NCBI RefSeq assembly: GCF_900129455.1
Contig: NZ_FQVU01000001.1
Location: 682,001 to 746,000, forward strand
DNA length: 64,000 nt
Direction of reading: 5' to 3'
From: Jatrophihabitans endophyticus
GTDB lineage: Bacteria > Actinomycetota > Actinomycetes > Mycobacteriales > Jatrophihabitantaceae
Shown here: piece after piece, positions 7,753 to 60,160 of the stretch
How the letters are laid out: every line of letters starts with the position of its first letter
How positions within the stretch are numbered: position 1 is the first letter of the stretch
Notes under the pieces: model-generated
Database searches by the model: none
What the model saw: only the letters and a program-made list of their open reading frames with translations
What the model was told of the DNA's origin: nothing
Position numbers and translations under genes: made by a program

Positions 7753-8214
7753 GTGGCACGTTCGCGGACACAGGTGGCCTTCCGGCTCGCGCAACTCGGC
7801 GCCGTTGCGGCGGAGCAGTTCGGCGAGCGCGTCGCCGAACTCGAGCTGTCACGACCCCAGGCCGGGCTGCTGCGCCTCATCGGCCGGCGACCGGGCCAGA
7901 GCCAGCGCGCGGTCGCCGCCCAACTGGGCACGCCACCCAGCCGGCTCGTCGCGCTGCTCGACGATCTCGAGCGTCGTGACCTGCTCGAGCGCCGCAGGAA
8001 CCCGGACGACCGTCGCAACCACGAGTTGCACCTCACTCCCGCCGGCGAGCGGACGCTCGACCGCCTCGGTGTGGTCGCGGCAGATCACGAGGCCGCGGTG
8101 ACGGTCGGGTTGAGCGCGGCGGAGCGCACCCGGCTCGACGAGTTGCTCGGCAGGCTCGCCGCCGCGCACGGGCTCGCCGAGGGCGTCCACCCCGGTTACC
8201 GCAGGCCGGACTGA
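7753..8214 (+). CDS. MarR family transcriptional regulator
   Basis: A 153-residue MarR protein. The helix-turn-helix region QSQRAVAAQLGTPPSRLVAL, then LDDLERRDLLERR, and the wing NPDDRRNHELHLTPAG are diagnostic. It is divergent from the membrane protein/LLM oxidoreductase operon and likely represses both, by analogy with other MarR-oxidoreductase pairs. GTG 7753 is the start; no strong ribosome site is seen, so it may be leaderless. Confidence 0.88.
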   Translation: MARSRTQVAFRLAQLGAVAAEQFGERVAELELSRPQAGLLRLIGRRPGQSQRAVAAQLGTPPSRLVALLDDLERRDLLERRRNPDDRRNHELHLTPAGERTLDRLGVVAADHEAAVTVGLSAAERTRLDELLGRLAAAHGLAEGVHPGYRRPD

Positions 8215-8512
8215 CCACCGCATCCGGCGCCGCCCCGCGGGTTCCGCGTGCCGAGGGGCGCGGATGCCGGGACGGAGCTAGCATGGACGGGCACCCACGT
8301 GCTGGCACCCCCGGCCCCCGATGCCGTCCGCTGCTCCGTCACAGACCCACCCGACGCAGGCAGCGGGTGGACATCCGACCCGCGGCGTCGACCCTCGCGG
8401 CATGCCCCGGTCGGGGCGGCCGCCGTTCGGCGCAACCCGCGGTGTCGTCGGCCGGCCACGTGCGTGCGGTTTCGCCCGGCCCGAACGTGCCGGGCGCACG
8501 GAGGAGGAGTCT
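8215..8512. other. Intergenic leader before helicase operon
   Basis: No gene is convincing here. GCATCCG at 8220-8226 and CGGATGC at 8261-8267 can pair as an imperfect stem and may end MarR transcription. TAGCAT at 8279-8284 is a weak -10 candidate. The frame is open into the helicase gene, but the implied N-terminal extension is low complexity, and the strong ribosome site at 8501-8509 places the start at 8513. Confidence 0.35.
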
Positions 8513-10675
8513 GTGGCCCGAGCAGGCCAGCGCCAGGCGGGCGCTCGCCGTACCGGTACGTCGACGCAGCGGCAGGTCGCCGAACCGAAGGACGTCATCT
8601 CGATGCTCGCCCGCGCCGTGCGGGAGGTGGAGGCAGCGGCCGAGCGCCGCCGCGTCACCCCCGCAGTGCGCGCGAAGTTCCACGCCATCGCGCTGATCGT
8701 GCGCGACGAGCACGCCCGGATCCGCGCGGCACAACCCGCCGGGTCCGCGCGCGAGTCGAAGGACCAGAAGCGCCTGGACGGCATCGTGGCCATCCTCGCC
8801 CGGACCGCCGTCCGCGACGCGGGACTGTACGGACTGCTCGGCGAGAACGCCGTCGTGTCCGACGCCACCCGATCGCTGCGACGCGAGCTCCTGGCGCAGG
8901 TCGGCATCGAGACGGCTCCGGAGGAGCTCGCGCCGCCCGAGGCGGACACCCCGACCATCGACACCTCGCGCCGCGTCGTGCCGCAGTCGGTGCTGTCGCG
9001 GCAGCTGGCCAACCCGTTCCTCGCGCCCGACTACTCCGCCGCACGGCAGCGGTCGGCGGCGCCGCGCCGACTCTCCGGCTGGGAGCTGCTCACTCCCCTG
9101 CTGACCTCGTTCGAGCGCGCGGCGGACGGCGCGGCCGCGTGCATGCCGCTGCCCGCCCCCGACCACCCGCGGGTGCGGGGGAACCGCACGCTGATGCCGC
9201 ACCAGGAGCAGCTCGTCGCCGCGGCGGCGGACGGTCACCGCACGTTCCTGCTCGCCGACGAGCCCGGCCTGGGCAAGACCGCTCAGGCGCTGCTCGCCGC
9301 GGAGGCGGCGAACGCCTACCCGTTGCTGGTCGTGGTCCCGAGCGTCGTCAAGACCAACTGGGCCCGCGAGGCCGGCATGTGGACGCCGCACCACCCCACC
9401 ACCGTCGTCCACGGCAACGGCGAGCGGGTCGACGGCTTCGCCGACATCGTGGTCGTCAACTACGAGGTGCTCGACCGGCACGTGGGGTGGTTCGGGCAGT
9501 TCGGGTTCCGCGGCATGGTCGTCGACGAGGCCCACTTCATCAAGAACAAGAGCTCGCAGCGCTCCCGGCACGTGCTGGAGCTGTCCGAGCGCATCCGGGC
9601 CCGCACCGTGCGGCCGCTGCTGATGGCCCTGACCGGTACGCCGCTCATCAACGACATCGACGACTTCCGCGCCATCTGGCAGTTCCTCGGCTGGATCGAC
9701 GAGACCGAGCCGCGGGCCGAGCTGATGGACGCCCTCGAGGAGACCGGCCTGACCCCGGCGGACCCGGGGTTCCACGCGGCCGCCCGCCGGTGCGTCATCG
9801 ACCTGGGCATCGTCCGTCGCCGCAAGGTGGACGTGGCCGCCGACATCCCCGCCCGCCGCACCGCCGACATGCTCGTCGAGCTCGACGACACGGTGGGTCG
9901 GTCGATCCGCGCGGCCGAGCGCGATCTCGCGCGGCGCATGGTCGCCCGCTACGACACCGCGCTCGCGAACCGCCGCGAGACGGTCTCGGCCGCCGGCGGT
10001 GTCGACGGCGACGGGATCGACGTGGACCTCGTGCGCAAGGTCGCGTCGTGGGAGCAGAAGGACGCGAAGAACGCGACGGGTGGCGAGAACGTCTTCGCCA
10101 TGATGCGGCGGATCGGGCAGGCGAAGGCCGGCCTGGCCGCCGACTACGCGGCGCAGGTGGCGCGCAGCGCGGGCAAGGTCGTCTTCTTCGCCAAGCACGT
10201 CGACGTCATGGACGCCGCGGAGGAGAACTTCACCCGGCAGGGCCTGCGGTTCTCCTCGATCCGCGGGGACCAGACGCCCCGGGTGCGGCAGCGCAACATC
10301 GACGCGTTCACCAGCGACCCCGACGTCGCCGTCGCCGTCTGCTCGCTGACGGCGGCCGGCGTCGGACTCAACCTGCAGGTCGCGTCCAACATCGTGCTGG
10401 CCGAGCTGTCCTGGACCGACGCGGAGCAGACGCAGGCCATCGACCGCAGCCACCGCATCGGACAGACCGAGCCCGTCACCGCATGGCGCATCATCGCGGC
10501 GCAGACGGTCGACAGCAGGATCGCCGGTCTGATCGACAGCAAGGCCGGCCTGGCGGCGCGCGCGCTGGACGGCTCCGACGACGAGGTGTGGTCGTCGGCC
10601 GACGTGCAGCACGAGACCCTCGTCGCCCTGCTGACCGACGCGTTGCGCGATCGCCACGTCACCATGGAGGGATGA
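8513..10675 (+). CDS. SNF2-type DEAD/DEAH-box helicase
   Basis: A 720-residue ATPase. The N-terminal quarter is helical and charged without a recognised domain. The SNF2 core then shows motif I ADEPGLGKTAQAL (about residue 250), motif II VVDEAHFIKN (DEAH, about 336), motif III LMALTGTPLIN, the RecA2 strand KVVFFAKHVDVMDAAEE and motif VI QAIDRSHRIGQTEPVTAW (about 645). This arrangement recalls SMARCAL1/HARP-like bacterial remodellers that act on DNA in replication or repair. The start GTG is set by GAGGAGGAG just upstream. Its stop overlaps the next ATG, so it is coupled to a PAC2 protein. Confidence 0.9.
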   Translation: MARAGQRQAGARRTGTSTQRQVAEPKDVISMLARAVREVEAAAERRRVTPAVRAKFHAIALIVRDEHARIRAAQPAGSARESKDQKRLDGIVAILARTAVRDAGLYGLLGENAVVSDATRSLRRELLAQVGIETAPEELAPPEADTPTIDTSRRVVPQSVLSRQLANPFLAPDYSAARQRSAAPRRLSGWELLTPLLTSFERAADGAAACMPLPAPDHPRVRGNRTLMPHQEQLVAAAADGHRTFLLADEPGLGKTAQALLAAEAANAYPLLVVVPSVVKTNWAREAGMWTPHHPTTVVHGNGERVDGFADIVVVNYEVLDRHVGWFGQFGFRGMVVDEAHFIKNKSSQRSRHVLELSERIRARTVRPLLMALTGTPLINDIDDFRAIWQFLGWIDETEPRAELMDALEETGLTPADPGFHAAARRCVIDLGIVRRRKVDVAADIPARRTADMLVELDDTVGRSIRAAERDLARRMVARYDTALANRRETVSAAGGVDGDGIDVDLVRKVASWEQKDAKNATGGENVFAMMRRIGQAKAGLAADYAAQVARSAGKVVFFAKHVDVMDAAEENFTRQGLRFSSIRGDQTPRVRQRNIDAFTSDPDVAVAVCSLTAAGVGLNLQVASNIVLAELSWTDAEQTQAIDRSHRIGQTEPVTAWRIIAAQTVDSRIAGLIDSKAGLAARALDGSDDEVWSSADVQHETLVALLTDALRDRHVTMEG

Positions 10676-57279: not shown

Positions 57280-57900
57280 TCAGTGCTGTCGGGCGCGGCA
57301 GGGGCGCAGCCGTTCCTTGGACGCGGCGAGCAGGACGGCGACACCGACGAGCACGGCGCCGGCGCCGACGGCCGCGGTCGCCGTCACCTGACCGGCTCCG
57401 GTGTCGGCCAGCCCGGCGCCCTGCGCGACGGCCGAGGCGGACGCGACGAGGGGCGCGGCGCCCTCGGACGAGCGGGCCGACGTCGTGCCGGGGTCGACGG
57501 TCGTGGTGGCCGCCGCCGCGGTCGTGGTGGTCGTCGTCGCGGTCGTGGTGGTCGTCGTCGTGCTCGTCGGCGTCGGGGCCGTGGCGGTGGTCGGGGCAAC
57601 CGACACGGTGGCCGTCGGGACGGCGGTGGTCGTCGGGTCGGTGGGGGCCGTCGTCGTCGGGGAGGGCGTCGGCGTGCTCGTCGAGGCGAGCACCAGCCGG
57701 ATCGTGCTCTCCTTCTGGATGTTGTAGTCCGACAGCGTGCGGCCGTCCTCGAGCTCCTTGCCCATGAACACCAGCGTCTGCTGCTCGGGTGGGAAGCCCG
57801 CCTGGTCCTGGATCTTGGCCTTGACGTTCTCGATCGAGTCGCTGGGCTCGACGTCCAGCGTGATGGTCGCGCTGCTGGGCAGCTGGACGAAGATCTGCAT
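57280..57900 (-). CDS. Ubiquitin-domain protein with Thr-rich linker and LAxTG-like anchor
   Basis: A 206-residue protein. Residues 1-71 align without gaps to eukaryotic ubiquitin ([38 protein letters not shown]), about 53 of 71 identical by eye. K27, K29, K48 and K63 are kept; K6, K11 and K33 are lost; the hydrophobic patch is P8-V44-V70 instead of L8-I44-V70. The LRLRGG tail is absent, so it cannot be conjugated in the usual way. Residues 72-160 are a Thr/Ala/Pro linker, 164-168 is LADTG (like the LAxTG of sortase E substrates), 173-194 is hydrophobic, and the end is basic. AGGAG sits 7 bases before ATG 57900; no signal peptide can be found upstream. Codon use matches the host. Function unknown. 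Confidence 0.88.
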
Positions 57901-57995
57901 GCGCTCGCTCCTGCGCACGGTCGGCGCACGTCTGTCGTGGGGTTCGTGCGGACCATCGGCAGGTCGGCGCGGTACCTGAACGCGCTCTGCCGGGT

Positions 57996-58050
57996 TGGCC
58001 CCACGCGAGCGCGGTCGATCGATCGTCGTGACCGCGCTCGCATGGGGCCA
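57996..58050. terminator. Long near-perfect hairpin upstream of the ubiquitin-like gene
   Basis: A 20-base arm at 57997-58016 (GGCCCCACGCGAGCGCGGTC) pairs with 58030-58049 with one mismatch and a 13-base loop that includes GATCGATC; one more A-T pair extends it to 57996/58050. It lies after the DUF2255 stop and about 95 bases before the ubiquitin-like start. Most simply it is the DUF2255 terminator; a regulatory hairpin is possible. Confidence 0.6.
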
Positions 58051-58842: not shown

Positions 58843-58896
58843 GCCGGGGTTGTCCACAGGCTGCGTTCGACGATCGTCGGGTGTCGGTCCCGACAG

Positions 58897-58907
58897 TAGA
58901 ATCGAAC
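58897..58907 (+). promoter_or_regulatory. -10 box and LexA-like half-site of the HNH gene
   Basis: TAGAAT at 58897-58902 lies 7 bases before ATG 58910, which implies a leaderless transcript. TCGAAC at 58902-58907 is one half of the actinobacterial SOS box (TCGAAC-N4-GTTCGA). The other half, GAGCAG, is degenerate, so LexA control is only possible. Confidence 0.4.
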
Positions 58908-58909
58908 GT

Positions 58910-60160
58910 ATGAGCAGCGTTGTCGACGACCTGGTGCCGGTCGATCTGGCGCGCTGCGACGACGACGTCCTGCTCGCGTCGTGGCGGGAGCTGGAGCGCA
59001 CGCGCAACCGGCTGGCGGCGATGGAGCACCGGTTGATCGCCGAGGTCGAGCGGCGGGGGTTGCCGTTCACCTATGGGGCGCGGAACACGGCGGCGTTCGT
59101 GCGGGCGTTGCTGCGGGTGCATCCGCGCGAGGCCGTGGCGCGGGTGCGGGCGTCGGCTGCGGCCGCGCCGATCACCACGTTGACCGGTGAGGTCGTGCCG
59201 GCGCCGTTCCCGGTCGTGGCGGCGGCGCAGGCGGCCGGCACCATCTCACCCCGGCACGCGCAGGTGATCGTCGCCGCGGTGCAGCGGCTGCCCGACGTGG
59301 TGCAGGTCGAGCACGGCGCCCGCGTCGAGGCCGACCTCGTCGGGTACGCGACGCAGTTCGATCCGTACCAACTCGGCACGCTGGCGCTGCGGGTGACGAC
59401 GCTGCTCGATCAGGACGGCGCCCTGGCCGACGTCGCCTACCGCGAGCGGCACCGGGACCTGACGATCCGGCAACGCCCCGACGGGTCCGCCAGCATCAGC
59501 GGGGAGGCCACCGCCGAGCTCGCCGAACGGCTGCTCACCGTCCTCGACGCGCTCGCCGCACCCAAGCCTTCTATCGACGGCACGAAGGACCCGCGCACCG
59601 CCGGCCAACGCCGCCACGACGGCCTGCTCGACGCACTCGACCTCGTCCAACGCGCCGAACTACTCCCGTCGGTGGCCGGGATCAGCGCCACCGTCCTGCT
59701 CACCACCACCGCGGCCAACTGGTCCAGCGGTGACGGCGTGACGACGACCGGGCACGGCGCGCTCCTGCCCACCCGCGAAGCGGTCCGCATCGCCGGCGGC
59801 GACGCCCGCACCATGACCATCCAGCTCGACGACCAGGGCGCCGTCGTGACTCACACCGACGCGCGCAGACTGTTCACCGAGACCCAGCGGCTCGCCCTGA
59901 TCGCCCGCGACGGCGGCTGCACCTTCCCCGGCTGCGACACCCCACCCGCCTGGACCCAAGCCCACCACGTGACCGACCACGCCCGAGGCGGCCCCACCAC
60001 CATCGCCAACGGCACCCTCGTCTGCGGCCACCACCACCGACAACACCAGAGACAAGGCTGGCGATCCGTCATCAACGACGGCCGCCCCGCCTGGCTCCCC
60101 CCACCCTGGCTCGACCCCCAGCAACGCCCCCGCACCAACCCCCACGTCAGCCCCGGCTGA
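58910..60160 (+). CDS. DUF222/HNH endonuclease (13E12-like)
   Basis: A 416-residue protein of the actinobacterial 13E12/DUF222-HNH family. The N-terminal DUF222 helices (RNRLAAMEHRLIAEVERRGL, then YGARNTAAFVRALLRVHPRE and AGTISPRHAQVIVAAVQRLP) precede the C-terminal HNH nuclease: DGGCTFPGCDTPPAWTQAHH, HVTDHARGGPTTIANGTLVC and GHHHRQHQRQGW hold the metal and catalytic residues and zinc-type cysteines. Such genes are multi-copy in many actinobacteria and may be intron-like or DNA-damage linked. The 3' end is strongly C-rich, as in family members elsewhere. Confidence 0.92.
   Translation: MSSVVDDLVPVDLARCDDDVLLASWRELERTRNRLAAMEHRLIAEVERRGLPFTYGARNTAAFVRALLRVHPREAVARVRASAAAAPITTLTGEVVPAPFPVVAAAQAAGTISPRHAQVIVAAVQRLPDVVQVEHGARVEADLVGYATQFDPYQLGTLALRVTTLLDQDGALADVAYRERHRDLTIRQRPDGSASISGEATAELAERLLTVLDALAAPKPSIDGTKDPRTAGQRRHDGLLDALDLVQRAELLPSVAGISATVLLTTTAANWSSGDGVTTTGHGALLPTREAVRIAGGDARTMTIQLDDQGAVVTHTDARRLFTETQRLALIARDGGCTFPGCDTPPAWTQAHHVTDHARGGPTTIANGTLVCGHHHRQHQRQGWRSVINDGRPAWLPPPWLDPQQRPRTNPHVSPG

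Follow-up and report, generated by a model that had tools for sequence, protein, structure and literature searches.

A leaderless ubiquitin-family protein of Jatrophihabitans endophyticus with a class E sortase-type C-terminal signal, possibly displayed outside the cell

A gene in the window analysed here (the whole 64,000-nt stretch of DNA at positions 682001-746000 of contig C1 of genome G000) encodes a protein in which a ubiquitin domain is followed by a long stalk and an apparent sorting signal. We tentatively propose, with a probability of about 0.4, that this protein is a ubiquitin mimic displayed outside the cell and joined to the wall by a class E sortase through its LADTG motif. Surface display is the best reading of the data, although it would require membrane crossing without a signal peptide. 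The features of the gene, in positions of the window and with the basis of each in brackets, are:

57280..57900, minus strand: whole gene, 206 amino acids and stop (ubiquitin domain, Thr/Pro/Ala stalk, LADTG, membrane segment and basic tail)
57908..57912, minus strand: ribosome binding site AGGAG, 7-nt spacer to the ATG (sequence)
57685..57900, minus strand: ubiquitin domain, residues 1-72, with Met1 as the translation start (PF00240, identity, AF2, Foldseek)
57412..57684, minus strand: low-charge Thr/Ala/Pro stalk, residues 73-163 (composition; AF2 pLDDT mostly 38-60, disordered)
57397..57411, minus strand: LADTG, residues 164-168, which fits the LAXTG of class E sortases (motif; PMC5148588)
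57322..57378, minus strand: hydrophobic membrane segment, about residues 175-193 (19-residue hydropathy 2.27; AF2 helix 182-197, low confidence)
57283..57321, minus strand: positively charged C-terminal tail of 13 residues (protein sequence)

The likeness of residues 1-71 to ubiquitin cannot be chance. An ungapped pairwise alignment to human ubiquitin gives 53 identities over these 71 residues, exactly the number that a preliminary description of this DNA had estimated by eye. The Pfam profile PF00240 matches the protein with E=1e-22 and 80.1 bits (cut-off 25.4). The structure prediction suggested in that description also gave the ubiquitin fold: AF2 models residues 1-70 with a pLDDT of about 90-94 and the strand and helix order of ubiquitin, and when this model was used in Foldseek, ubiquitin structures ranked first, with an rmsd of 0.6 Å over 71 columns and a TM of 0.92 by target length for 1ubq. 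These results support that the domain is a true member of the ubiquitin family. A Rad23-type UBL protein was considered and rejected (NCBIfam rad23, 60.6 bits, below the cut-off of 207.3). The start codon is ATG (open reading frame 57900..57280, minus strand), preceded by the AGGAG site that had already been noted.

Lysines K27, K29, K48 and K63 are retained relative to human ubiquitin, as the preliminary description had stated, and K6, K11 and K33 are lost (K6Q, K11A, K33Q). The substitutions L8P, R42T, I44V, H68R and R72A lie on the surfaces through which ubiquitin is usually bound. We take these positions to touch the Ile44 patch and the E1 contacts, and the domain, if bound by ubiquitin readers, may therefore be selective in its binding. 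L8P, I44V and H68R would be expected to weaken recognition by Ile44-patch readers. The earlier observation of a replaced conjugation tail is borne out: LRLRGG is absent, residues 71-76 read LASTST (RLRG at 72-75 is changed to ASTS), and a Thr-rich stretch follows. Since the C-terminal Gly-Gly is missing, the data support that this ubiquitin is not conjugable in the normal way, and of the proposed re-use as a non-conjugable display or decoy domain, display or mimicry fits best. A search of the genome with PF00179 (E2) gave no match; the control genomes also gave none.

The stalk is rich in Thr, Ala and Pro (35, 20 and 11 of residues 73-165, respectively, with 4 charged residues), and the C-terminus that follows contains an LAXTG motif, a membrane segment and a basic tail, all three being present. 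LAXTG is the motif on which class E sortases act (PMC5148588). The genome encodes a class E sortase (NF033747, E=6.6e-73; 245 bits, cut-off 160) and a second sortase with a score just below the class F cut-off. Judged by its sequence, the C-terminus is better read as a putative class E sortase-type signal than as a plain tail anchor; the earlier term “tail-anchored” was right about the membrane segment but had overlooked LADTG. By the positive-inside rule, the basic tail would lie in the cytosol. The PF00746 profile gave no report on the protein, and no sequence in the genome exceeded the cut-off of this profile. A pattern search found 158 LAXTG-coding sites in the genome. No second full LAXTG signal was seen among the 30 loci and about a dozen other sites inspected, the latter selected largely on account of an acidic residue in third position. 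From this partial survey of the 158 sites we have no indication that the organism commonly anchors proteins through LAXTG. A search of 31 genomes for relatives of the C-terminal half returned the gene itself only.

No signal peptide was found in any of the three frames over 240 nt upstream of the gene, where the maximum 10-residue hydropathy in all frames is 0.79; here and throughout, signal peptides were judged by a simple hydropathy rule and a –3/–1 check, not by SignalP. The protein thus shows neither a signal peptide cut at ubiquitin Met1, as in BfUbb of Bacteroides fragilis, nor the N-terminal export signal of a class E sortase substrate. It is an exception among its relatives, since a leader is present in all 12 of those whose C-terminus combines a membrane segment with a basic tail. 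Ubiquitin, once folded, would be ill suited to translocation without a leader.

Under surface display, the ubiquitin domain, folded and with its Met1 free, would be exposed outside the cell, the flexible Thr-rich stalk would keep it away from the membrane, and the class E sortase of the genome would join the protein to the wall through LADTG. It would act only through being bound, the conceivable partners including ubiquitin-binding proteins or deubiquitinases of protist grazers or of other cells. Export, attachment to the wall and any partner are what we infer; the complete sorting-signal anatomy, the class E sortase and the recurrence of leader-bearing, anchored ubiquitins in other bacteria argue for this reading. 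Against it stand the absent leader, the lack of a second full LAXTG signal among the sites of the partial survey and changes in the domain at K6, K11, A46 and H68, positions nearly fixed in other sequences.

The missing leader would be accommodated if the protein were tethered to the membrane and its ubiquitin domain pointed into the cytosol; the C-terminal segment would then be a tail anchor, LADTG would stay uncut and the partners would be bacterial ones inside the cell. A strong ribosome binding site is placed exactly for Met1, in agreement with such an arrangement, and the actinobacterial ubiquitin genes of L034, L054, L056 and L066 are leaderless too. Nevertheless, we consider it rather unlikely: the strongly basic tail favors a cytosolic C-terminus, and an LADTG motif ahead of the membrane segment together with a long stalk would make little sense inside the cell.

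Homologues turned out to be far more numerous than the “few” of the preliminary description. A scan with residues 1-71 found 271 relatives in one genome collection, and we examined the best 80 of these together with 7 of 10 loci on viral contigs, 87 in all. The best 80 of the 271 are spread over about a dozen phyla; MAG contigs account for many of them, and some belong to named isolates, namely of Saccharibacillus, Cohnella, Paracidovorax, Dyella, Rhodoferax, Neptunomonas, Loktanella, Pseudovibrio, Carboxylicivirga, Ruminococcus albus, Rhodopirellula and Aquiluna. A hydrophobic leader is present in 71 of the 87 relatives. In 70 of these 71 leaders, the predicted cleavage is exactly before ubiquitin Met1 and the –3/–1 residues fit signal peptidase I, so that the mature proteins should begin with ubiquitin Met1, and export that leaves Met1 free is predicted to be the usual design of the relatives. 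A scan for C-terminal domains in 78 proteins (the window protein, bacterial relatives and a few from viral contigs) gave 26 Autotransporter, 5 SLH and 4 IPTL-CTERM matches and 3 T9SS tails. A few Gram-positive relatives end with sortase-like signals; L045, L064 and L070 carry such a C-terminal signal together with a signal peptide. Ubiquitin genes with a signal peptide were also seen on contigs classed as viral (L108, L109, L113, L114 and L116), which may be proviruses or bacterial DNA wrongly classed. Another viral contig carries a leaderless ubiquitin fused to a protein of ∼170 amino acids (L117:4001-4738), along with genes for a DnaB-like helicase and a primase; a short open reading frame just upstream (L117:3662-3898) is similar, judged by eye, to the portion that follows the ubiquitin.

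The leaderless loci L024, L027 and L055 have an LRLRGG ending or encode polyubiquitin; they may represent binned contigs of eukaryotes or viruses, and the argument gives them no weight. In L102, L103 and L104, a short open reading frame beginning with a twin-arginine-like signal shares an ATGA overlap at its end with a leaderless ubiquitin open reading frame:

L102:9314-10113, L103:9593-10407 and L104 about 8174-9078 (minus): ATGA-overlap pairs, from three actinobacterial genomes of two families

The short open reading frame of L102 matches Pfam TAT_signal with E=0.0034, below the cut-off. Such arrangements are hints that actinobacteria may pair an export signal with a ubiquitin starting at or near its own Met1 in other ways. 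No short twin-arginine reading frame of the ATGA type adjoins the window gene. In genome G490, the L102 pair is followed directly by another leaderless ubiquitin gene (L102:10132-10707), and in the actinobacterial gene at L060:1595 the leader is in another frame, due to a frameshift or a sequencing error.

The preliminary description had proposed direct transfer from a eukaryote, which the comparison does not show. Of 71 positions, the domain shares 54-55 with several bacterial ubiquitins and 53 with human ubiquitin, and its D16 and S22 are the bacterial majority residues. Because of this slightly higher identity and the two shared residues, we lean toward a bacterium as the possible donor, the difference being small. 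For the group as a whole, sequence identity makes a eukaryotic or viral root likely. The homologue search with phylogeny recommended earlier yielded close bacterial relatives, but the window sequence, which sits on a long branch (0.37), could not be placed in a tree built from 86 domains and 72 columns.

The distribution of the gene is patchy. A ubiquitin match above the family cut-off was found in 1 of 399 genomes sampled in the order (the window genome only), in 4 of 395 in the class and in 3 of 396 in the phylum, the window genome being counted. Two loci of the same order, L002 in G146 and L003 in G129, show weak matches to the ubiquitin profile within long open frames (E about 1e-4, below the cut-off), which probably represent a different ubiquitin-like domain. 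In genome G006 of the same family, a relative of the downstream hydrolase (62%) has no ubiquitin gene adjoining it. A sole carrier in the order, leaders in all 12 anchored relatives and a long branch would also suit a captured gene in decay, in which a bacterial gene for a signal peptide, ubiquitin and anchor would have lost its leader, so that export ended and the gene is on its way out. This we regard as unlikely, given the intact frame, the kept fold positions (pLDDT about 90-94) and a good ribosome binding site at the ATG, by which the present start looks used. In addition, GC3 is host-like, with 0.99 in the ubiquitin part and 0.95 in the remainder compared to 0.90-0.97 in the neighboring genes, in line with the host-like GC-rich codons described before.

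Very unlikely, in our view, is an antibacterial protein like BfUbb, a ubiquitin homologue that is secreted by B. fragilis and inhibits other strains of its own species (PMC5705921). BfUbb is small, soluble and secreted with a signal peptide, whereas the window protein is stalked, anchored and leaderless.

The gene is located inside a 1.12-Mb contig of a 4.48-Mb genome (10 contigs, completeness 98.54%, contamination 0.28%). Its neighbors are bacterial, as had been noted: based on Pfam, a beta-lactamase-family hydrolase is encoded downstream and a DUF2255 protein upstream, followed by DUF222/HNH and TetR genes. The DUF222/HNH gene is at 58850-60160, near the ubiquitin gene. Between the DUF2255 stop and the ubiquitin gene we found:

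57996..58050, minus strand: 21-bp near-perfect inverted repeat/hairpin (fold z=-6.67)

This hairpin is terminator-like but has no T run, and neither a consensus terminator nor an Rfam match was found for it; likewise, no tRNA, Rfam family or sigma-70 promoter was found near the ubiquitin gene. Phage records contained no match that could indicate a phage source. Three plasmid records match, one of Ruminococcus albus 7 and two of Pseudoalteromonas, none of them close to the window gene. The 420-kb plasmid of R. albus 7 carries a gene annotated “ubiquitin family protein” (H1, NC_014824.1:388210-388422), and such ubiquitin genes can therefore sit on plasmids. Contamination or a chimeric assembly, the objection that the preliminary description had raised against itself, is scarcely credible: we found no point in its favor, and the long contig, the clean genome, the host-like GC3, the bacterial flanking genes and a bacterial-type anchor in the same frame as ubiquitin speak against it.

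In usual teaching, ubiquitin belongs to the eukaryotes and B. fragilis is the one departure from the rule. In the open-licence literature, we found no paper on exported ubiquitins across bacterial phyla or on a form with a sortase signal; bacterial ubiquitin homologues as such were already known from B. fragilis (PMC3352274, PMC5705921). The relatives collected here point to leader-bearing, often anchored ubiquitin across many bacterial lineages, with the native N-terminus almost always freed by predicted cleavage and the conjugation tail replaced, a combination that calls for a partner recognizing folded ubiquitin outside the bacterial cell. To this pattern, the window protein adds a form with a class E sortase signal and a puzzle of export. 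It is, as far as the compared sequences indicate, not a lone curiosity but an instance of a general design common to many unrelated bacteria. More broadly, many phyla might have fitted a eukaryote-like ubiquitin, nearly always with a free Met1, to their own envelope anchors, so as to display it to the ubiquitin-binding proteins of hosts or of eukaryotic grazers; the window protein would then be the actinobacterial version, with a class E sortase signal and a leaderless route to the surface. Taken as a whole, we hold this to be doubtful.

Among known systems, ThiS and MoaD share the beta-grasp fold with ubiquitin but have no such sequence identity to it. Pup is unrelated to ubiquitin in sequence (PMC3352274). 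BfUbb and the window protein are alike in being near-eukaryotic ubiquitins of bacteria with a patchy occurrence and no C-terminal Gly-Gly (PMC3352274, PMC5705921). The mature BfUbb is reported to begin with ubiquitin Met1 (PMC5705921); it differs in its 76 amino acids, its signal peptide, its terminal Cys and its E1-binding and antibacterial activity (PMC3352274, PMC5705921), whereas the window protein has a membrane anchor and lacks a leader. The proteins of Saccharibacillus (L008), Ruminococcus albus (L043), Paracidovorax (L016) and Prochlorococcus (L037) likewise have ubiquitin at the mature N-terminus, followed by a further part that is often envelope-anchoring, but their signal peptides are cut at Met1 and their anchors are of other kinds, while the window protein is translated from Met1. 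In the leaderless actinobacterial genes of L034, L054, L056, L066 and L084, translation also begins at or near ubiquitin Met1 with no leader in the reading frame; these proteins differ in carrying another domain (fn3-like in L034 and L054) and no stalk or sortase signal. We know of no class E sortase substrate with a ubiquitin domain. Known substrates of these enzymes are exported through a signal peptide, and one group of them, the chaplins of Streptomyces, shares with the window protein the succession of LAXTG, membrane segment and basic tail.
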